From: Kovacikia minuta CCNUW1
GTDB taxonomy: Bacteria; Cyanobacteriota; Cyanobacteriia; Leptolyngbyales; Leptolyngbyaceae
DNA: 64,000 nucleotides
Assembly (NCBI RefSeq): GCF_020091585.1
Contig: NZ_CP083582.1
Span: 2,976,001 to 3,040,000 of the forward strand
Direction of reading: 5' to 3'
The position numbers were made by a program, and so were the translations under genes. This document shows, one piece after another, positions 5,297 through 59,404 of this stretch; position 1 is the stretch's first letter, and every line of letters begins with the position of its first letter. The notes below the pieces were generated by a model. The model did not search any database. It was not told the DNA's origin and saw only the letters and a program-made list of their open reading frames with translations.

Positions 5297-7234
5297 CTAG
5301 TTGGGTGTTGATTCCTCTGAAGTCGATTCCTCCGATTGGTTGCCGGAAGCGGGCGAACTATCAAGGGTTGGAGAGGATTCGCCGGTTGGACTGGGAGCGT
5401 ACTGCCCGGTTGGACTGGGGGAGTACTGCCCGGTTGGGCTAAGCGGCGAAGCGGTTGGGCTGACTGATGGGGTAGCAGGGGCGATGGTTGGGGTAACAGC
5501 AGGTTGTGTGCCTGTTGTTCGGGTGAAGTACTGGTAAGCCAGACGGGAAATTTGGCTGACAAAATCATACGCCCGATCGTCATTGAACGCACGCTTGACC
5601 AGGACAACAGCGGCATAGCGCTTGCCATTAGGCAGGTCGATTAACCCCACATCACCGATCATCGTGCCAATATCCCCGGTCTTATGGGCAATGGTTGCAC
5701 CTGCGCCCAACCCTTGAGGAAGTTGACTTCGGTTTTCGGTTTGGCGCATGATGTCCAACATGCGATCGCGCGATCGCATCGACATCAGCTCTCCCTGACT
5801 AATACGTGCCATTAACAGCGCCATGTCTCTGGGAGTGGTTGTATTCGTACCTTGCAGGTCAGGCAGGGGACGATTAATTGTGGTTGATTGTAGACCCCAG
5901 GATTTAAACCGTTGGTTCAGGGCATTCATTCCCCCCAAGCGGGCAATAACCATATTGGTTGCCGTATTGTCACTAATCGTAATCATCTTGGTAACGGTTT
6001 CCAGAGCTGTAAACCGCGTGCCGGGTTGCTGATACTGCATTTCCCCAGAACCGTTTCCAATTAGCTCTTTCCGTAAGGTCAGAGGTTCATCCAGCCGAAT
6101 TTTGCCCGCATCCAAATCCTGGAAAAAAGCAACCAGAATAGGCACCTTAATGGTGCTGGCCGAAGAAAAAGTAGCTTCTCCATTAATATCAACATAGGCA
6201 TTTTTATCCAAATCCAGGAAAAAAAGCCCCGTTGCCATTTGAGCATTCTTACCCAGTAAGGTCTGAAGCGCTAACTTCAGAGGGGTCATTTCCTGTCCCA
6301 GTTTGGGTAACTCATTCAGCGATGTTGCCGCCCCTGCATTCGCAGGAACCGCGACGCTGGCTTGTTTGTTTTGTTGAGAGGCACCTGCAGGCGATCGACT
6401 CGCGGGGTCCCACATCGACAGCATCGTACCTGCCAGCACCCCTACCCCCACACTCAAAATCACCATCCGAGCAGCATAAAGAGCGGCAGAAAGACCCGGC
6501 GAACGGGGCTTAACTACCCGCTCTCGTTTGGCCGTGTGGGCAGCCATCCGACTGTCTGCACCATTAAACTGGGTTGGAGCCTGCGTTGGCAGGCGGTTCG
6601 CACCTGGAATCAGCCCTCCTGAACGGCTTCCATTGGTTCTATGGGGAAGTAGCTGGTTGTAGCGATCGCGAATCCCTCGATGAACCGTCGGTTGCAGCAG
6701 ACTGGGCGATTTCGACCCCCTATCCCTAGCCGGAACCGATCGCGCAGGAACGGAACCATGCCCACCTTCTCCTCCCGCTTTGACAAAGTTTTTCGGTTTG
6801 TTGGTAGCACCGTCCCGGTTCGTTAACCCAACTCTATTACTCTGACGTTCTCCCCCATTGGAACGAAGAGTTTCCCCCCTCGACCTGGTTGCATCCCGGT
6901 TCTGACTCCGTTTTGATTGGGCAGGCGTTCGTCTGGAACCTTTACCAAACAACCGATTCCAAAAATTCGGTAGACGGCGCTCAGAGGATTTGTCTTTTGA
7001 ACCCGCACTCTGCGCCTGTCCCTTATCTGGAGGGGAAATCAGGTCAAAGGAAGGAGAATTGTTCCCCCGCACTTGACTCCCATTCGGTTGCTGATAACTG
7101 TCGGGATGCCCATTCCAGCTACCTTTCAACAATTGACGCGTTTGCCATGCGATCGCGCTCAAGCCGCGACTGCCGCCGCAACGGCAATAGTTCGGGGGAC
7201 ATTCCAACTGTCCTGGAAACTTTTGTTGATCCAT
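5297..7234 (-). CDS. membrane-anchored serine hydrolase, class A beta-lactamase-like
   Basis: A long, low-complexity cytoplasmic N-terminus rich in R, S, N and P (about 245 residues) leads to one transmembrane segment (about 250-275, AARMVILSVGVGVLAGTML). An extracytoplasmic beta-lactamase-fold domain follows. Active-site motifs are S-T-I-K (about 360-363), S-D-N (about 421) and H-K-T-G (about 517-520). The tail after about 575 is a Pro/Ser/Thr repeat (YSPSPTGQ and YAPSPTGE units). The family includes D,D-peptidases and housekeeping homologues, so beta-lactam hydrolysis is not implied. The N-terminus is uncertain: an ATG at 7292 opens 57 codons in another frame (MSESGDLPHKSRQN...), so the true start could lie upstream with a one-base shift. 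Confidence 0.8.
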   Translation of the reverse strand: MDQQKFPGQLECPPNYCRCGGSRGLSAIAWQTRQLLKGSWNGHPDSYQQPNGSQVRGNNSPSFDLISPPDKGQAQSAGSKDKSSERRLPNFWNRLFGKGSRRTPAQSKRSQNRDATRSRGETLRSNGGERQSNRVGLTNRDGATNKPKNFVKAGGEGGHGSVPARSVPARDRGSKSPSLLQPTVHRGIRDRYNQLLPHRTNGSRSGGLIPGANRLPTQAPTQFNGADSRMAAHTAKRERVVKPRSPGLSAALYAARMVILSVGVGVLAGTMLSMWDPASRSPAGASQQNKQASVAVPANAGAATSLNELPKLGQEMTPLKLALQTLLGKNAQMATGLFFLDLDKNAYVDINGEATFSSASTIKVPILVAFFQDLDAGKIRLDEPLTLRKELIGNGSGEMQYQQPGTRFTALETVTKMITISDNTATNMVIARLGGMNALNQRFKSWGLQSTTINRPLPDLQGTNTTTPRDMALLMARISQGELMSMRSRDRMLDIMRQTENRSQLPQGLGAGATIAHKTGDIGTMIGDVGLIDLPNGKRYAAVVLVKRAFNDDRAYDFVSQISRLAYQYFTRTTGTQPAVTPTIAPATPSVSPTASPLSPTGQYSPSPTGQYAPSPTGESSPTLDSSPASGNQSEESTSEESTPN

Positions 7235-10831: not shown

Positions 10832-11704
10832 ATGCTGGGCTGGATCTTTGGAGGATTTATTAAGAAACTGGAGCGCTCCACCAAAGAGGTCGTAAGAGAC
10901 AGTGGTAAAGAAATCGATAGGCTATTTGAGGAAAGGCTCGACCCTCTAGCTGACAAGCTTGACTATATCGCCAAAAAACGTATCGGACAGGTCGAAGCTT
11001 TGGAAACTAAGGTCAAAGACGATCTGGAATCTTTGCTTAACGACGCTGATGAGAAGTCACGCAAGATTTTAGAAGAAGTCAATCGTATGCGTGAAGAAGC
11101 TTTAAAGGATGTTAGGAAAACGGTTAAAGAGACAGATTTTTATCTGGAAAATCGAATTAACCAGATTTCCCTATCGGTGATGGAAGCACTGCAATTCTCC
11201 AATAGAAGTATTAAAAATGCTTTTCTAGAAATTAAATTTTTAGAAAACAAAATATTTCAAGATGCCAATTATCTTATTGACAAAATAGACATAATTGTCA
11301 TAGGAACCGTTGAGCAGATCAAGAATGACTTTCAAAGGTACTTAACTTTTCCTAATCCTTTCGATGAGTGTAGAAGGCAGCTTAATCTTCATTTGAAATT
11401 TGGAAGTCAAATTACTGACATAGAACTCTATCGTTTAGCTGAGTGTTGTGAATTGTCTAAGTTAAGCGAAGACACACCCATTGAAAAAGTAGTAGAAACA
11501 TACGCCCAATTACAGCTCAATTCAGCACGAATGGCTGCATTGTCCAGAAGTGCTCCTGCACTAAGGCAAATTGCTGTAGAAGATTGGATTAAGTATGGTG
11601 TTTTATGTGATTTTTGGTGCAATACGATCCAGACCTATGATTCTTCCAGATTGATTTTAGAGAAACGTGTTTGTCCTCCGCTTCCAGAAGAGAAAGGTAA
11701 GTAG
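10832..11704 (+). CDS. uncharacterised coiled-coil protein
   Basis: About 290 residues, not recognised. The start MLGWIFGGFIKKLE looks like an amphipathic or membrane-associating helix. It is followed by a highly charged helical region (about 20-110: KEVVRDSGKEIDRLFEERLD, KVKDDLESLLNDADEKS) that predicts a coiled coil. The C-terminal half is less charged and contains six cysteines. The ATG at 10832 is chosen because GGAG lies eight bases upstream; an in-frame TTG at 10817 is less likely. Base composition is visibly more AT-rich than the neighbours. It is the first of four co-directional genes leading to hemF, 70 bp before the next. Confidence 0.6.
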   Translation: MLGWIFGGFIKKLERSTKEVVRDSGKEIDRLFEERLDPLADKLDYIAKKRIGQVEALETKVKDDLESLLNDADEKSRKILEEVNRMREEALKDVRKTVKETDFYLENRINQISLSVMEALQFSNRSIKNAFLEIKFLENKIFQDANYLIDKIDIIVIGTVEQIKNDFQRYLTFPNPFDECRRQLNLHLKFGSQITDIELYRLAECCELSKLSEDTPIEKVVETYAQLQLNSARMAALSRSAPALRQIAVEDWIKYGVLCDFWCNTIQTYDSSRLILEKRVCPPLPEEKGK

Positions 11705-11774
11705 GCAGATAATTTTAACCTTTCGCCTATAAATCTTTTAGTTCCTATATCAACTTCCTATTGAGAGATTCAAG

Positions 11775-12050
11775 ATGGCTAGAGCAAATAATGGGGAAAC
11801 ACCATTAGGATATTACGAGAGCGCGATCGCTGAAACCTTGAAGATCCGCGAAGAGTTTCAATCAGATCGAAAAAATTTGGAAGAAATTAAAGCTGCTAAT
11901 AAACGTTTAGAAGCCGAACTACAGCAGGCAAAAGCAGAAATACAAAAACTGGAGATCGCTGTTAGTAATTATCGAGAAGAATTTCAGACACTAGTATTAA
12001 AAAACCAAATGTTGCAGAGTAACTTTGGAAGCTTGTCTGGCAGAAATTAA
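11775..12050 (+). CDS. coiled-coil N-terminal module (probably the 5' part of the GUN4 gene)
   Basis: 91 codons beginning MARANNGETPLGYYESAIAE, followed by a continuous charged heptad pattern to LVLKNQMLQSN. The opening shares the pattern NNG..TP.G.YE.AI.E....RE with the protein at 12690-13241, so it is a reusable N-terminal module. The frame ends at 12050, overlapping by 26 bp a frame one base later that continues the coiled coil into a GUN4 domain. That downstream frame has no ATG or GTG before the domain, only TTG at 12025. I infer that 11775-12648 was, or is, one gene with a +1 break near 12015-12030. Two overlapping genes remain possible. Confidence 0.55.
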   Translation: MARANNGETPLGYYESAIAETLKIREEFQSDRKNLEEIKAANKRLEAELQQAKAEIQKLEIAVSNYREEFQTLVLKNQMLQSNFGSLSGRN

Positions 12051-12648
12051 ATCCAGTAAACAAGGGATTCAAGAGGAGATTAAAGCAACTCAAGATAATT
12101 TTGAAAGTTGGATAGCGGAAGTTCAGGAAACAACTGAATCGACTCAAAATGAAGTTCAAGTTCTTAAAAAAAGGTTTGAAGAGAGAACTCAACCCGCATT
12201 GGACTATCGTCGCTTGAAACGACTATTGGAATCTGGAAGTTGGATGAGAGCAGACAAGGAAACGTTTAATCGAATTTTGGAAATAGCTGATAGCCAGAGA
12301 GATGGAAGGCTGAATGAGGAAAATATTGATCAAGTCTTAATTGAAGAGCTTCGAATTATCGATCAGTTGTGGACAAAGTACAGCAATGGACGTTTTGGTT
12401 TTAGTGTACAATTCGAAATTTATCAGGATTTAGGTGGAACTCAAAAATACGACGACAAAATTTGGAAAGACTTTGGTAATAAGGTCGGCTGGTATATCAG
12501 TAATCAATGGATTTGGTATAGATACGTCAACTTTAGGGGAATAGCACCTTCTGGTCATTTACCTGCCAGAGTGTGGGATAGCTATGAGGGTAGAGGAGTC
12601 GGTTCACTCCATTCTCTTATGCCAAAACTAATAGAATTTGGCTTCTAG
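12025..12648 (+). CDS. GUN4-domain protein (3' part)
   Basis: The N-terminal coiled coil (about 1-55, EACLAEIKSSKQGIQEEI) leads into a GUN4 domain (about 60-200): DYRRLKRLLESGSWMRADKE, then DQLWTKYSNGRFGFSVQFEI and WKDFGNKVGWYISNQWIWY, ending PARVWDSYEG. GUN4 domains bind porphyrins, and the stand-alone Gun4 stimulates Mg-chelatase; many cyanobacterial copies are fused to other modules with unknown roles. The nominal TTG start has no ribosome binding site. The coding region 41 bp downstream carries the same N-terminal module as the frame just upstream. See the entry at 11775. Confidence 0.8.
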   Translation: MEACLAEIKSSKQGIQEEIKATQDNFESWIAEVQETTESTQNEVQVLKKRFEERTQPALDYRRLKRLLESGSWMRADKETFNRILEIADSQRDGRLNEENIDQVLIEELRIIDQLWTKYSNGRFGFSVQFEIYQDLGGTQKYDDKIWKDFGNKVGWYISNQWIWYRYVNFRGIAPSGHLPARVWDSYEGRGVGSLHSLMPKLIEFGF

Positions 12649-12689
12649 ATTTTGTCGTTCATTGCTTTCAACCATCAGGAATATTAAAC

Positions 12690-13241
12690 ATGTTCAAATC
12701 AAACAACGGTGATGGGAAAACTCCGATCGGATTTTATGAAAAAGCAATCTCTGAACTGACCCATGCACGCGAACAGTTGCAGGCAGCGCAGAAAGAAATT
12801 CAGATTTTGCGAGAGGAGCTTCAATCGACGAGAGAAGACTTGAAGCAGGAACTCAAAAAGAGTCAGCAAAAAAGTCAGCAAACAACGGATGCTTTGGAAC
12901 AGGAAATTAGAGCGCTCAAAAATGGACTTGAGGATGGATCAGTCATTGTCCAAAAAGCAAAAATGCTACGCGGAAAAGATGACAATTACTGGATCGGTGT
13001 TTCCGCGGTTGATAGTGTCAACCACCATTGCCTCCAGGTTTGGAAAGCCGATAAGAATACCTGGCATAATGATGTTCGGGTGAAAGCCGCAACTTTTCTA
13101 CGGGCGAAGGATGATGATCACTGGGTTGGCTTTAAGTACATGAAAAAAGGTATTTATCACACTTTCTCTGTCTGGTCTGGAAAAGACAATACCTGGCATA
13201 GTCGTGTCCGGGTCAGCGCGGCAGATAAATTAGAGCCATAA
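12690..13241 (+). CDS. coiled-coil protein with twin C-terminal repeats
   Basis: 183 residues. The N-terminal module (NNGDGKTPIGFYEKAISEL) matches that at 11775. A coiled coil follows to about residue 90 (QQKSQQTTDALEQEIRALK). The C-terminus is two tandem repeats of about 44 residues, MLRGKDDNYWIGVSAVDSVN... and FLRAKDDDHWVGFKYMKKGI... Each closes with (K/D)NTWH(N/S)(D/R)VRV and an Ala-rich turn. The repeats are aromatic-rich and probably beta-stranded. I do not recognise the domain. It sits 41 bp after the GUN4 frame and 154 bp before hemF. Confidence 0.65.
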   Translation: MFKSNNGDGKTPIGFYEKAISELTHAREQLQAAQKEIQILREELQSTREDLKQELKKSQQKSQQTTDALEQEIRALKNGLEDGSVIVQKAKMLRGKDDNYWIGVSAVDSVNHHCLQVWKADKNTWHNDVRVKAATFLRAKDDDHWVGFKYMKKGIYHTFSVWSGKDNTWHSRVRVSAADKLEP

Positions 13242-13395: not shown

Positions 13396-14430
13396 ATGAC
13401 TGCCTTTTCCACCCCTGAAACGATCGCATCCAACCCCCTTCCCCCCTCGGACTCCCGCCAACGGGTGAGCCAGTTCCTCCAGGATTTGCAAGATCGAATC
13501 TGTCAGGGTTTGGAACAGGTAGATGGCAAAGAAACCTTCCGAGAAGACTCCTGGGAGCGGGAAGAAGGCGGTGGTGGGCGATCGCGGGTTCTCCGAGAGG
13601 GCGGCGTCTTCGAGCAAGGTGGCGTTAATTTTTCTGAAGTTTGGGGCAAAAATCTACCCCCTTCAATTCTGGTGCAGCGCCCGGAAGCTGCGGGGCATGA
13701 GTTTTACGCGACGGGAACCTCAATGGTGCTGCATCCCCGCAACCCCTACATTCCCACGGTTCATCTGAACTACCGTTACTTTGAAGCGGGTCCGGTTTGG
13801 TGGTTTGGTGGCGGAATTGACCTGACGCCCTATTATCCCTTTGCTGACGACGTGGTTCATTTTCACCGCACTCTGAAACAGGCTTGCGACCTTCACCATG
13901 CAGAGTATTACCCAACCTTTAAACTCTGGTGTGATGAATACTTCTATCTCAAGCACCGTCAGGAAACGAGAGGGGTGGGGGGCATCTTCTTTGATTATCA
14001 GGATGGTCGGGGAACGCTCTACAATGGCCCCGATGCCAACGGTCCAGCAGCACTGCACAGCCAGCAGGTGGGCAAAATTGGGGAACGGAGTTGGGAACAA
14101 CTCTTCGATTTTGTACAGGCGTGTGGCAATGCATTTTTGCCCGCCTACGTGCCCATTGCCGAGCGTCGGAGAGCGCAGGAATATGGCGATCGGGAACGAA
14201 ACTTCCAGCTTTACCGACGCGGGCGCTATGTAGAATTCAACCTGGTCTATGATCGGGGTACGATCTTTGGCTTGCAAACCAATGGACGCACCGAGTCCAT
14301 CCTTATGTCTTTGCCGCCGCTGGTACGCTGGGAGTATGGCTATCAACCAGAACCCAACACCCGTGAGGCTGAACTCTATGAAATTTTCTTGAAGCCACAA
14401 GATTGGGCCAACTGGATTCTACCAACCTGA
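13396..14430 (+). CDS. hemF: oxygen-dependent coproporphyrinogen III oxidase
   Basis: Aerobic oxidative decarboxylation of coproporphyrinogen III to protoporphyrinogen IX in heme and chlorophyll synthesis. Motifs: [38 protein letters not shown], the [13 protein letters not shown] signature, [10 protein letters not shown] and [19 protein letters not shown]. The ATG at 13396 gives about 344 residues, the family length. An upstream in-frame TTG at 13309 would add a non-conserved stretch read from repeat DNA (TTGCCACCTACCACCTAACC region). It follows the GUN4-containing islet on the same strand. Confidence 0.96.
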
Positions 14431-15553: not shown

Positions 15554-17540
15554 ATGATCCCTTCCTCCCCTCGTTTCCCAGATATCCAAACCCATTGGGC
15601 AAAACCTTTTGTTGAGGCGCTGGCTGCACGGGGGATGGTTCGCGGGTTTGAGGATCAAACCTTTCGTCCGAATCGAGCAGTCAGTCGGGCGGAGTTTGCC
15701 GCCTTGCTGCAAACCGCCTTTCCCAGTCCAGCGAAACGTCCCTACACCCCGTTTGCAGATGTTCCTGCCAACCACTGGGCAGCGATCGCCATTCGAAAAG
15801 CGTTACGAAACTGGATTTCTGTCCGGCTATCCGAATCGCAAGTTTCGCCCGGAGGAGTCCATTCCCAGGGTGCAAGCACTGGTTTCGCTGGCAGGGGGCT
15901 TAGGATTTAACCCATCGAATAGTCTTTCCCTGGCGAAGGTCTATCAGGATAGTGCCCAAATTCCAGATTGGGCGAAGGGGGCGATCGCTGCTGCCACTGA
16001 GGCTGAAATCGTTGTAAATTACCCCACACTGCAACAGTTGCGCCCACTCCAGGCGGCGACCCGGGCAGAAGTTGCTGCTTTTATCTACCAATGCCTGGTT
16101 GAACTGGGAAAGGCACCGCCGATCGCTTCCAACTATATCGTTCGCTGGGTTCAAACGGTTGCCGTTAGCCACCCGCGAGAGTTCCGGGGAGTATGGGTAA
16201 CATCCGTCTGGAATAGCGACTTTCCTTCTCAATCCAACTTGACGACACAGCAACAACAGGCAGAACTGATCGCCATCCTGGAACAGGTACAGGCGATGAA
16301 CTTCAATGCCCTGATCCTCCAGATCCGCCCTGAAGGTGACGCGCTTTATGCCTCCAAACTGGAGCCCTGGAGCAATTGGCTAACTGGAACTCAGGGGAAA
16401 GCGCCAGAACCGTTTTATGATCCGCTGGAGTTTGCGATCGCCCAATGCCATCAACGCAACATTGAACTCCATGCCTGGTTCAACCCTTACCGTGCCCGCA
16501 CCTCTAAACAGACCGTCAATGCTAAACCCCATATGGCTGCGACCCATCCGGAGGTGGTCTACCCCTGGGGCAACCAACTCTGGATGGACCCCGGCGCTAA
16601 GGTTGTGCAAGAGCGGGCATATGCGGTGATCATGGATGTGGTGCGCCGCTACGATGTCGATGGAATTCACCTGGACGACTATTTTTATCCCTACCCGATC
16701 GCAGGTCAGACCTTCCCGGACAGCAAAACCTATCAGGACTATCGATCGGGCGGAGGCACCCTGGCCCTGGCAGACTGGCGCAGGGAAAACGTTAACCAAC
16801 TGATCCAGCGACTGGCAATGGGTATCCGGGCTGAAAAGCCCCAGGTCAAATTTGGCATCAGTCCATTTGGGATCTACCGTCCTGGACAACCTGTCCAGAT
16901 CCGTGGACTGGATGCCTACGAACAACTCTATGCCGATTCCCTCAAGTGGTTACAACAGGGCTGGGTAGACTACCTCGCCCCGCAACTCTATTGGCGCATC
17001 GATCCTCCTGCGCAAAGCTATCCGGTTTTGTTGCAATGGTGGGCAGAGAACAATCCCAAACAATGTCACCTCTACCCCGGCAATAACCTGGGGCAACTGG
17101 ATGGGTCCAGTTGGGATCTGGCGGAAATTGAACGGCAGATCGACTTGACCCGCCAACTCAAATCGCAATTGGCGCTGGGGAATATTTTCTTTAGCATGAA
17201 GGCTTTTACTGCCAATCGTGAGGGGATTCGCGATCGGTTCAAAGTTGCCACCTACCGCACCCCCGCCCTGGCTCCTGTAGTGCCCTGGTTGAAAGCATCC
17301 CCACCAGATCCTCCCACCCGCGTTCGGGTACAAAACGGCAGAGTTACCTGGAACCCCGCAACGCCTAACATTCGTAGTTGGACTCTTTACCGCAAAGACG
17401 CCACCCAATGGACTCTGCTCCAGGTGCTTCCCGCCACTGCCACTACAGTCACCGTTGGACCGGGAACCTACGCCCTTTGCGGAGTGAATCGGTTATCTCA
17501 GGAAAGTGCAGGTGTGGTGATTTTGGTAAGCAATGGGTAA
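15554..17540 (+). CDS. SLH-domain family 10-like glycosylhydrolase (YngK/DUF187), one frame break
   Basis: The N-terminal S-layer-homology repeats (FPDIQTHWAKPFVEALAARG; FADVPANHWAAIAIRKA; a third near 15950-16110) anchor to cell-wall polymer. They are followed by the glycosylhydrolase-like barrel: REFRGVWVTSVWNSDFP, then LHAWFNPYRART and YDVDGIHLDDYFYPYP. It ends in a fibronectin-like strand segment. The second SLH repeat is interrupted: IRKA at 15791-15802 is followed, after one surplus base at 15803, by YETGFLSGYPNRKFRP. The whole span is 3n+1 bases. No signal peptide is visible at the ATG 15554, so the start may be incomplete. Confidence 0.85.
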
Positions 17541-55719: not shown

Positions 55720-58700
55720 ATGCTCAACAAATTCAGAATTAGAACCAAAATCGGGGCAGGGTTTGCCACTGGTGTGGTGATCTCGGCAGCGATCGGACTC
55801 TTTATTTACAAAAGTGCTACCCAGGCGATAGAAGCTGCCCATTGGGAAACCCATACTTATAAGGTTCTCACCGACCTTGAGAATCTGATGTATCGCCTGA
55901 AGGATGCTGAGGTTGGGCAACGGAATTATCTAATCACGGGCAACGAGCAGTATTTAGAACCCTTGAATTCTATCAATCAGGAACTCAATCAAAACCTGAC
56001 AAATCTTCGCCAATTGACCAAGGACAATCTCCAACAGCAGCAGTTTTTAAATCAATTAGAACCCCTGGTCAAAGGGCGCTTACAAACGTTAGAAAAAGTT
56101 GCTCAAGTTCGTCGAACCCAGGGATTTGCCGCCGCTACTAATCCAGTGTCACTCAAACAGGGAATTGATCAGGCAGAGGCTATTCGCAGGCTTGCCCAGG
56201 AGATGCGAAATAAAGAACAAAAATTGTTAGAACAGCGCACCGAACAATCCAATGCGGCAACGCAGCAAATGCTGTATAGCATTTCAATTGGGATTCCGCT
56301 CTATGCGGTGCTGCTGGGCCTGATTGGGTTTTTCCTGACCCGCAACATTGCCAACCCCCTCAGAAATATTTCCGCTGCTGCCGAACGCATCGCAGCCGAT
56401 GATTTGCTCAGTTCATCTGCCCGTGGACGATCGCAATGATGAGATTGGCACCCTCTCCCAAACCTTCAACCAGATGGTTGCGAACCTGCGAGAAAACAGG
56501 CAGCAAACTGCGGAACAGGATTGGCTCAAAACCAATCTGACCAATTTCACCCAAATGCTTCAGGGGCAACGGGATCTGGAAACTACCGCCAAGCAAATTT
56601 TGTCTGAACTGGCTCCTCTGGTTGCGGCACAGCATGGGGTGTTTTACCTGATGCAATCCGATGGCAGCCTTACCCCATCCCTGAAACTGCTGAGTGCTTA
56701 CGCCTATCGAGAACGCAAACATCTGGCAAACCAGTTTCGCCTGGGAGAAGGTCTGGTTGGGCAATGTGCGCTGGAAAAGGAACAAATTTTGCTGACTGAA
56801 GTCCCCCAGGACTATATCAAAATTAACTCCGGCTTAGGGGAAGCGACGCCATTAAATGTGGTGGTGTTGCCTGCGGTATTTGAAAACCAGACGATCGCCG
56901 TAATTGAGTTGGCCTCCTTTCAACGGTTTAGTGAGATTCAACTGACCTTTTTGGATCAACTGATGGTGAATCTGGCGATCGTCCTCAACAATATGATCGC
57001 CAACCAGAAAACGAAAGAATTGCTGGAAGAATCCCAAACCCTTACGGAAGAACTGCAAACCCAACAGGAAGAACTGACCGAACGAAATCAACGTCTAGCA
57101 GAACAAGCAAAAACTTTGAGAGAGTCAGAACAACTCCTAAAAGAACAACAGGAAGAATTGCAGCAAACTAATGAGGAGTTAGAGGAGAAAACGGAGTTAT
57201 TGGCGCTGCAAAATCGGGAAATGGAGCGCAAAAACAAAGAGTTGGAAGAAGCAGGAGCTTCCCTGGAAGAAAAGGCGAACCAACTGACGCTCACCTCCAA
57301 ATATAAATCCGAGTTTCTGGCGAATATGTCCCATGAACTCCGAACTCCCCTCAACAGTTTATTAATTCTGGCCCGGTTACTGTCTGAAAATGGAGAGGGA
57401 AACTTATCCCAAAAACAAACGGAGTATGCCCGCACCATTTACTCCGCTGGCAACGATCTATTAGCGCTGATTAATGACATTCTCGATCTGACCAAGATTG
57501 AAGCAGGGATGATGTCCGTCGATGTCAATCGGACTTTGTTTACCGATATCAGTGGGCATCTGGAACAAACCTTTCGTCAGATTGCCCAAGACAAAGGGCT
57601 GGAGTTTACCATTCACCTGGATGCTAACTTGCCATCGGCGATCGATACTGATCCAAAACGCCTCCAGCAGGTGTTAAAAAATCTACTGGCAAATGCGTTT
57701 AAGTTTACCGATCGCGGTCAAATTGCCCTGTCAATTTCTCCAGTGTCCCACGGTTGGAGCTTCGACCAGACTGCCCTGAATCAGGCGGAAACAGTCATCG
57801 CCTTCGCCGTTCAGGATACGGGCATTGGCATTGCCCCCGATAATCAGCAAATGATCTTTGAAGCTTTTCAGCAAGCAGACGGCACCACCAACCGCAAATA
57901 TGGAGGCACCGGGTTGGGCTTATCCATCAGCCGTGAACTTGCCCATTTACTGAGTGGTGAAATTCGCCTGGTCAGCCAACCGGGGGTAGGGAGTACCTTT
58001 ACGCTTTACTTGCCACAGGCTGTAGAGAAGACAGAGGGAAGCACTCAACCCCCAGTTCTCAGTTCTCAGTCCCCAGCTTCAATTCACAATCCAAAATCCA
58101 AAGTCCAAAATTCTGTCCCAACTCAAAACTTAGAACTCAAAACTCAAAACTCTTCCTCATCCCTCATCCCCCACCCCTCACTCCTTACCGAAAACCCCCT
58201 ACAGGACGATCGCAACACCCTCCAACCTGACGATCACAGCCTGTTAATTATTGAAGATGACTTAAACTTTGCCCGAATTTTGCTGGACATGGCACGCCAC
58301 CATGGCCTTAAAGGACTGGTGGCACCCCGGGGAGATGTTGGTTTGGCGATGGTTCAAGAGTTCAAGCCAACCGCCATCATGCTGGATATTGCCTTACCAG
58401 GTATAGACGGTTGGCAAATTCTCGATCGCTTGAAGCATGACCCCAGTTGCCGCCACATTCCAATCCATGTCATGAGCGTAGAAGAAGGGCAACAACGGAG
58501 TTTGCATCAGGGTGCGATCGCCTATCTCCAAAAACCAGTCAGCAGCGAAGAAGTGACTCGAGCGCTGACCTCACTCAACGAGTTTATCGATCGTCCTGTG
58601 AAGAATCTGCTGATTGTGGAAGATGACAACCTTCAACGCCATAGTTTGGTTGAACTAATTGGAAATGGAGATGTGGTCAGCACCGCCGTTGGCACCGGCG

Positions 58701-59404
58701 CAGAAGCCCTGGAAGCCTTACAATCGAGCCATTTTGACTGCATGGTGCTAGATCTGGGATTGCCGGATATGAGCGGTTTTGAGTTAATTGAGCAGATCAA
58801 ACAACAACCCAGTTTGGGTTACCTGCCGATCATTGTTTACACCGGCAAGGATCTCAGCCACCGGGAAGAAACCGAACTGCGCCGCATCTCTGACACGATC
58901 ATCGTCAAAGGGGTGCGCTCCCCAGAACGGCTTCTGGACGAAACGGCTCTGTTTCTCCATCGCGTTCAGGCAAGCCTGCCCGAACCCAAGCGGATTGTGC
59001 TAGACCAACTGAGGCAAAACGATCCGGTTCTGGCAGGCAAAAAAGTGTTGATCGTAGACGATGATGTCAGAAATATCTTTGCTCTCACCAGTCTCCTAGA
59101 GGGCTATCAGATTCAAGTGTTCTACGCCGAAAATGGGCAGGATGGCATCGCAGCCCTGCAAGCCAACCCCGACATTGATGTGGTGTTAATGGATGTCATG
59201 ATGCCCGAAATGGACGGCTACGAAACCACCCGTGCCATTCGCCAGAACAAGCAGTTCTCTTCCCTACCCATCATTGCCCTGACGGCAAAAGCAATGCAGG
59301 GCGATCGCGAAAAATGTATCGAAGCTGGAGCCTCAGATTACATCACCAAACCCGTGGATACCGAGCAATTACTTTCCTTACTCAGGGTGTGGCTGTATCA
59401 GTAG
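55720..59404 (+). CDS. CHASE3-HAMP-GAF hybrid histidine kinase with three receivers, one frame break
   Basis: A membrane segment, CHASE3-like extracytoplasmic domain (YRLKDAEVGQRNYLITGNEQ, LEPLVKGRLQTLEKVAQV), second membrane segment (YAVLLGLIGFFLTRNIANPL) and HAMP. At about 56407 one surplus base separates ERIAADDL from SVHLPVDDRNDEIGTLSQTF. Then GAF, coiled coil, HisKA ([16 protein letters not shown]), HATPase_c and three RECs, all closely similar to the upstream kinase. Unlike it, REC2 here keeps the acidic pair (LIVEDDNLQRHSLVEL). A repeat-derived linker (PASIHNPKSKVQNSVPTQ...) at 58030-58195 separates the ATPase from REC1. The span is 3n+1. Confidence 0.9.

Follow-up and report, generated by a model that had tools for sequence, protein, structure and literature searches.

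The S74 domain is a chaperone that acts on trimeric fibres. The beta-prism II fold needs three B-lectin subdomains, so that one subdomain completes the fold only as three chains, and GUN4 is an intracellular tetrapyrrole-binding regulator. Among the closest systems described so far are the EAD-type conflict systems of cyanobacteria, which include VMAP, iSTAND ternary and related systems (PMC7159879, PMC8195603), and GUN4 fusions have been proposed as sensors of photosynthesis status (PMC7159879). Here we describe a three-gene islet which resembles the EAD-type systems in placing a common N-terminal adapter on varied C-terminal domains, GUN4 among them. However, the adapter of the islet is a coiled-coil start of about 22 residues, its heads include lectins rather than enzymes, and it is accompanied by a new partner protein, A. 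The N-termini of the proteins concerned matched no Pfam or NCBIfam domain, neither a known EAD nor a death-like adapter. In the literature, we found no description of this gene set, while GUN4 genes were mentioned in other settings without this architecture.

Layout of the islet

The islet was identified in a stretch of 64,000 nucleotides (G000:C1:2976001-3040000, hereafter the window) of the 8.56 Mb genome of Kovacikia minuta CCNUW1. As read in an initial annotation of this DNA, three genes follow one another on the + strand, namely A (10832-11704), B (from 11775) and C (12690-13241), with spacers of 70 and 41 bp. The islet is also AT-richer than its surroundings, with a GC content of 0.393 versus 0.521 in the flanks. 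AT-richness was likewise found at 42 of 45 related loci, and it may partly reflect the codon composition of coiled coils. On the 3′ side of this GUN4-bearing islet lies hemF, encoding coproporphyrinogen oxidase (13396-14430), an adjacency that was not seen at other loci. A role of the islet in haem synthesis was considered and rejected, because the neighbours differ at other loci and because hemF and the window's second neighbour gene lie apart in relatives.

Gene A encodes the constant partner

Gene A (10832-11704, + strand; 290 aa) is the constant component of the set, found at 35 split loci and in six fusions, and consists of a stalk and a conserved C-terminal helical domain. Its amphipathic N-terminus (MLGWIFGGFIKKLERSTK; 10832-10885, + strand) follows the motif MLGW[ILV]FGG.VKKLERAAK, in which M1, G3, F6, G8 and E14 were invariant in 14 A homologues, and may contact a membrane. 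The long amphipathic helix that follows (10874-11326, + strand; about 150 residues) has an 11-residue, or hendecad, hydrophobic periodicity, as reflected by a spectrum peak at 98-99 degrees in the 14 homologues, which corresponds to 11 residues per 3 turns. Such a helix would suit either a stalk or a lipid-surface helix. The C-terminal helical domain (11348-11641, + strand), which we named ACD, is the most conserved part of the protein; it is about 95 residues long and non-repetitive, with invariant P, C, G, Y and W residues. AlphaFold gave a model of A that was moderate overall (pLDDT 62.6, pTM 0.35), with a helix at residues 3-167, mostly of low confidence, and then a compact helical domain with pLDDT mostly 74-88, the ACD.

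We found no relative of A in Pfam, NCBIfam, PADLOC, PHROGs or the PDB, only sub-threshold coiled-coil noise, and a Foldseek search with the A model gave no PDB match below E 0.5. Weak coil matches to HmpF, SMC, GAS, HlyE, ZorA and similar proteins were judged to be noise of the same kind. The HlyE/ClyA family cutoff was not reached (best score 23.5 bits versus 25, in one fusion), and the split A protein P0001 had no match to this family. The initial annotation had supposed that the partner is membrane-linked. A hydrophobic segment was absent from all 14 A proteins (highest 19-residue Kyte-Doolittle mean, 1.29), and neither A nor the arm proteins described below carried a transmembrane-like segment; the amphipathic start alone points to a membrane, and the link is now only a possibility.

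Genes B and C share an N-terminal module

The products of B, C and their relatives, here called arm proteins, share a start of about 22 residues (KTPLGYYEKAIEELRRTREELQ), which is followed by a coiled coil with heptad periodicity (about 102 degrees) and then by an exchangeable head. B and C are alike over these first 22 or so residues, behind a variable start. The resemblance noted initially proved to be real, since a search of the whole 8.56 Mb genome with C ranked the start of B second (E 9.8e-5). Across 17 module proteins, the T, P, E, I and Q residues were invariant. The modules of B (ETPLGYYESAIAETLKIREEFQS; 11796-11864, + strand) and C (KTPIGFYEKAISELTHAREQLQA; 12717-12785, + strand) were recognised with E values of 9.1e-14 and 1.2e-14, respectively. 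A module profile of 24 columns, made from arm N-termini (consensus KTPLGYYExAIxELRxxREELQ), matched them with 2.8e-10 and 3.5e-11 at genome scale. When the N-termini of the arm proteins were searched against Pfam and NCBIfam, the module was not part of any family.

Gene B has the coiled-coil-GUN4 architecture that was first assigned to it, but not a single open frame: its ORFs, 11775-12050 and 12025-12648, lie in different frames, and the reading moves by +1 somewhere in the interval of about 11990-12040. The 5′ part (11775-12050, + strand; 91 aa) encodes the N-module and coiled coil and stops at the frameshift, while the 3′ part in the other frame (12001-12648, + strand) encodes coiled coil and the GUN4 head (PF05419, about 12196-12567). 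The head was recognised by Pfam with E 1.4e-33 (116.4 bits versus a cutoff of 29.2), matched the solved GUN4 structures 1z3x and 1y6i, and has kept the GHLP motif. A programmed -1 frameshift at A AAA AAC was rejected, because GUN4 is read in the +1 frame. At least two other genes of the window look frameshifted, so the frameshift in B could be an assembly error. One is an SLH-domain gene (15554-17540), in which the frame changes near 15.79 kb and the SLH-like reading goes on in another frame, which suggests assembly indel errors or real decay; the other is a sensor-kinase-like gene (55720-59404), split near 56.4 kb, with a HAMP-like region resuming in the next frame. Gene B is unbroken in most relatives. 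Several GUN4 arms elsewhere were also split or truncated (L046, L106, L111, L114 and the second arm of L050), indicating that decay is common.

Gene C (12690-13241, + strand; 183 aa) joins the N-module and heptad coiled coil to a head of two repeats of about 43 residues. Repeat 1 (..GKDDNYWIG..NHHCLQVW..NTWHNDVRVK; 12954-13085, + strand) occurs in A-bearing genomes only, and repeat 2 follows directly (13086-13223, + strand). The twin repeats described before were thus confirmed, while their 'beta-type' character is unproven, the AlphaFold model of the head (input of four sequences) having a pLDDT of 40; this model was left out of the fold search. Scanning genome contigs with the C protein alone as the query gave no match. 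Residues 21-116 of C matched proteins of about 630 aa of the same family, a candidate that we discarded because the match was mainly coiled coil and the module was absent.

The gene set recurs across cyanobacteria

Within the window's order, A was found in 1 of 42 genomes, the window genome itself, and in a class sample it was found in 8 of 390. Among the Nostocaceae, the A profile matched 42 of 218 genomes; about 30 of these carry a full-length or nearly full-length copy and several carry N-terminal relics only. Pooling of the class and Nostocaceae samples with 14 named genomes gave 35 distinct split loci, which occur in Nostoc, Anabaena, Calothrix, Scytonema, Lyngbya, Argonema, Chroococcus and others, that is, in several families and with differing flanks. 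All 35 have one or two arm genes immediately downstream of A on the same strand, according to the ORF calls made in this analysis, and these arm genes carry the module, except at a few damaged loci that lost it. The islet therefore recurs as a gene set, as had been anticipated. GUN4 heads were the most frequent, occurring at 24 of the 35 loci: 18 loci had GUN4 arms only, 11 had C arms only, 4 had both, 1 in Lyngbya aestuarii combined GUN4 with an H-type lectin (H_lectin E 4.1e-17), and 1 in Argonema combined GUN4 with an arm without a recognised head. The GUN4 heads among the arms were recognised with E values down to 4e-40.

At E<1e-7, the module profile matched 9 of the 390 class genomes, which were the 8 with A plus one further genome, G166. 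In G166 (locus L042, around 5583-5610), A is cleanly deleted and the GUN4 arm gene is intact, and the flanks match those of the sister strain (L036). Similarly, the C-head profile matched 4 genomes of the same sample, all with A. This confinement to A genomes, with G166 added for the module, indicates that the module, the C head and A belong together. As the module lies outside known families and the set occurs at 35 loci, we are dealing neither with an ordinary piece of a well-known family nor with a gene set restricted to one genome.

Reading the ORF lists around the loci by eye, we found no conserved neighbour besides the set itself; the surrounding genes were housekeeping or mobile-element genes. 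The gene ychF lies directly upstream of A, or one gene off, at L040, L044, L045 and L056 (at least three genera), and trx, pyrF or other neighbours lie upstream of A at other loci. Relics of A of about 45-56 residues, mostly from the N-terminus, were seen without an arm gene in five Nostocaceae genomes (L125, L126, L127, L128 and L129).

Fusions join A to the module, and heads are exchanged

At six loci, a single long protein replaces the separate genes, with the ACD running straight into an arm and both the start Met of the second gene and the module retained. The A-module junction reads NETMTAQQAFDEAIRRLDQARNEYQ in L065 and EDDMTPLTALETRIKQLED in L041 and L057. The six fused proteins form one clade and have different ends: a C repeat in L041 and L065, a single B-lectin subdomain in L057 (PDB lectins to E 1.2e-12), an S74 endosialidase-type chaperone in L123 (E 1.5e-12), an H-type lectin in L124 (E 2.8e-20), and no recognised head in L117. 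The two H_lectin heads scored 62.5 and 72.7 bits versus a Pfam cutoff of 24. Identity between fused and split A is low, 26% for L041 to P0001 and 31% for L065, so the geometry of the fusions may not carry over. The fused A-C gene of L065 (7935-9041) is located on plasmid p057_H of Nostoc sp. C057, typed as conjugative, near vanadium nitrogenase genes, and that of L041 (7734-9071) has a lysozyme-like gene directly upstream, beside an integrase-like gene, as read from the sequence.

Comparison of the fusions showed that L065 and L123 are 81% identical over 312 aa, and L041 and L057 78% identical over 353 aa, and that both pairs then continue into unrelated heads. Conversely, L041 and L065 carry near-identical C heads though they are only 37% identical overall. 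Moreover, arm genes with different heads at the same locus share their 5′ DNA and then diverge, over 129 bp at 91% in Lyngbya, 102 bp at 86% in Argonema and 115 bp at 79% in Nostoc 106C. Like stalks with unlike heads, near-identical heads on distant stalks and the 5′ cassettes together indicate that heads were exchanged between stalks, and modules between heads. In a weaker test, the likeness of modules within a locus was clearly above that to same-head genes elsewhere at only two of five testable loci. Altogether, the 35 loci, the fusions and the head swapping bear out the original idea of a common N-terminal adapter with interchangeable C-termini and a constant partner. The results lend no support to the description of these C-termini as 'effector-like': the heads that could be identified, GUN4, H-type lectin, B-lectin and S74, are binding or assembly domains, and none belongs to the nucleases, proteases or toxins.

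A proposed recognition fibre

Based on the above results, we consider the chances about even that the products of the islet build a modular, plug-in type of recognition fibre. A would be the constant stalk, composed of the amphipathic start, the long helix of 11-residue repeats and the ACD at its end, and B and C would be plug-in arms, with the N-module of about 22 residues docking on the ACD and the heptad coiled coil serving as the shaft. The C-terminal head would bind the ligand, a tetrapyrrole for GUN4, glycans for the H-type and B-type lectins and a further ligand for the C repeat. The best evidence that stalk and arm meet comes from the fusions, which join both halves end to end, and the position of the module directly behind the ACD in these proteins makes the ACD the predicted hub for N-modules. 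Heads would be swapped between stalks by recombination, either inside the 5′ module or along the coiled coil, so that one chassis could be re-aimed, as with phage tail fibres. We hold somewhat more tentatively to the wider proposal of a non-viral two-part fibre platform, in which the constant anchoring stalk A takes interchangeable trimeric arms through the plug of about 22 residues, and the cell re-aims the fibre at tetrapyrrole, glycan or other ligands by swapping arm genes, as a cellular counterpart of tail-fibre tip exchange.

The single B-lectin subdomain of L057 and the S74 end of L123 suggest that the arms are most likely trimers; to our knowledge, GUN4 has not been described as the tip of a trimeric fibre. 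As no signal peptide or membrane segment was seen, we favour a fibre that is cytoplasmic, at a membrane surface or self-assembling over a secreted one. None of the databases used here describes A, the N-module or the repeat head of C, and GUN4, usually discussed as a cofactor of chlorophyll synthesis, here shares one swappable chassis with lectins and tail-fibre ends. If docking holds, plug and hub would make a natural exchangeable platform for protein display, and the GUN4 heads would make it testable what free-standing cyanobacterial GUN4 fusions sense.

The best surviving alternative, which we regard as rather unlikely, is an intracellular sensor, in which A is a membrane- or scaffold-bound hub, the heads report tetrapyrrole status (GUN4) or glycans (lectins), and head exchange retunes the input. 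The predominance of GUN4 heads, and an amphipathic start on A with no membrane segment in A or the arms, would suit such a sensor. However, the set has no conserved output domain or partner gene beside it, and a cytoplasmic sensor would not usually carry lectin, B-lectin or S74 heads.

Less probable again is a conflict or defence module, in which the arms recognise an invader (phage or competitor), A executes membrane damage, and an arms race diversifies the heads. The scattered occurrence of the set (1 of 42 genomes of the order and 42 of 218 of the Nostocaceae), the decayed copies and N-terminal relics, the fusions on a plasmid or beside integrase- or transposase-like genes, and the weak, sub-threshold HlyE similarity in A fusions are what one might expect of such a module. 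Yet no effector enzyme was found, the HlyE matches are below the Pfam cutoff and of the coiled-coil kind, and the phage collections gave no match. In the ORF lists around the loci, read by eye, we noticed no VMAP, MoxR-vWA or STAND partner beside the arm genes and no recurring NTPase. Defence had also been suggested in the initial annotation, and this part of it finds no direct support here, as nothing beyond the set is conserved next to it and PADLOC gives only GUN4 itself within PD-T4-6.

We think it improbable that A is the base of a fibre belonging to a phage-tail-like particle, or to an extracellular contractile one, with its structural genes elsewhere in the genome. Tail fibres, too, show swapped heads, coiled-coil shafts, S74 ends and lectin tips, and two fusions, L123 and L057, have PHROGs tail-fibre matches in their heads and coils, but no tail or baseplate genes were noticed near any locus, A, the module and the C head are absent from IMG/VR and phage records, and GUN4 tips would be unprecedented. 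Finally, that generic coiled-coil genes, alike by low complexity, stand together by chance has next to no likelihood: the coil matches in Pfam and NCBIfam are typical low-complexity noise and the AT-richness fits composition, but the idea is already refuted by the confinement of the module to A genomes among the 390 (plus G166, with A deleted), the adjacency at 35 of 35 loci, the non-repetitive ACD with its invariant P, C, G, Y and W, and the module-bearing fusions.

Comparison with known systems

The recognition fibre that we prefer can be set beside several described proteins. The head of gene B is a GUN4 domain (PF05419; Mg-chelatase cofactor) with its GHLP motif, but it differs from the cofactor in riding on a module and coiled coil, in being paired with A and in being frameshifted in the window. 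The PADLOC model of the anti-phage system PD-T4-6 (PDLC04062) contains a stretch that matches GUN4, with E 2.7e-41 for gene B of L044, whereas the match is limited to positions 281-429 of the 450 in the model, the GUN4 part, and the rest has no counterpart here. Because the last third of PDLC04062 matches GUN4, automated annotation of defence genes could label GUN4 proteins as PD-T4-6. The B-lectin subdomain of L057 resembles the lectin-like bacteriocins pyocin L1 and putidacin L1 as well as monocot mannose-binding lectins (E 1e-12 to 1e-9); in place of tandem full lectin domains, L057 has a lone subdomain carried by the long helical A stalk.

The viral and phage collections (IMG/VR and phage records) held no relative of A, the C head, gene C or the fused protein. 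In design, the set is like phage tail fibres and mosaic trimeric fibres, which have a coiled-coil shaft, a conserved N-terminal attachment part and tips exchanged by recombination, and the S74 end of L123 and the lectin tips add to this likeness. Unlike tail fibres, it is chromosomal or plasmid-borne without tail genes, has the separate constant protein A and carries GUN4 tips. The set is thus new as a system, built on a design principle, exchangeable fibre tips, that is already known.
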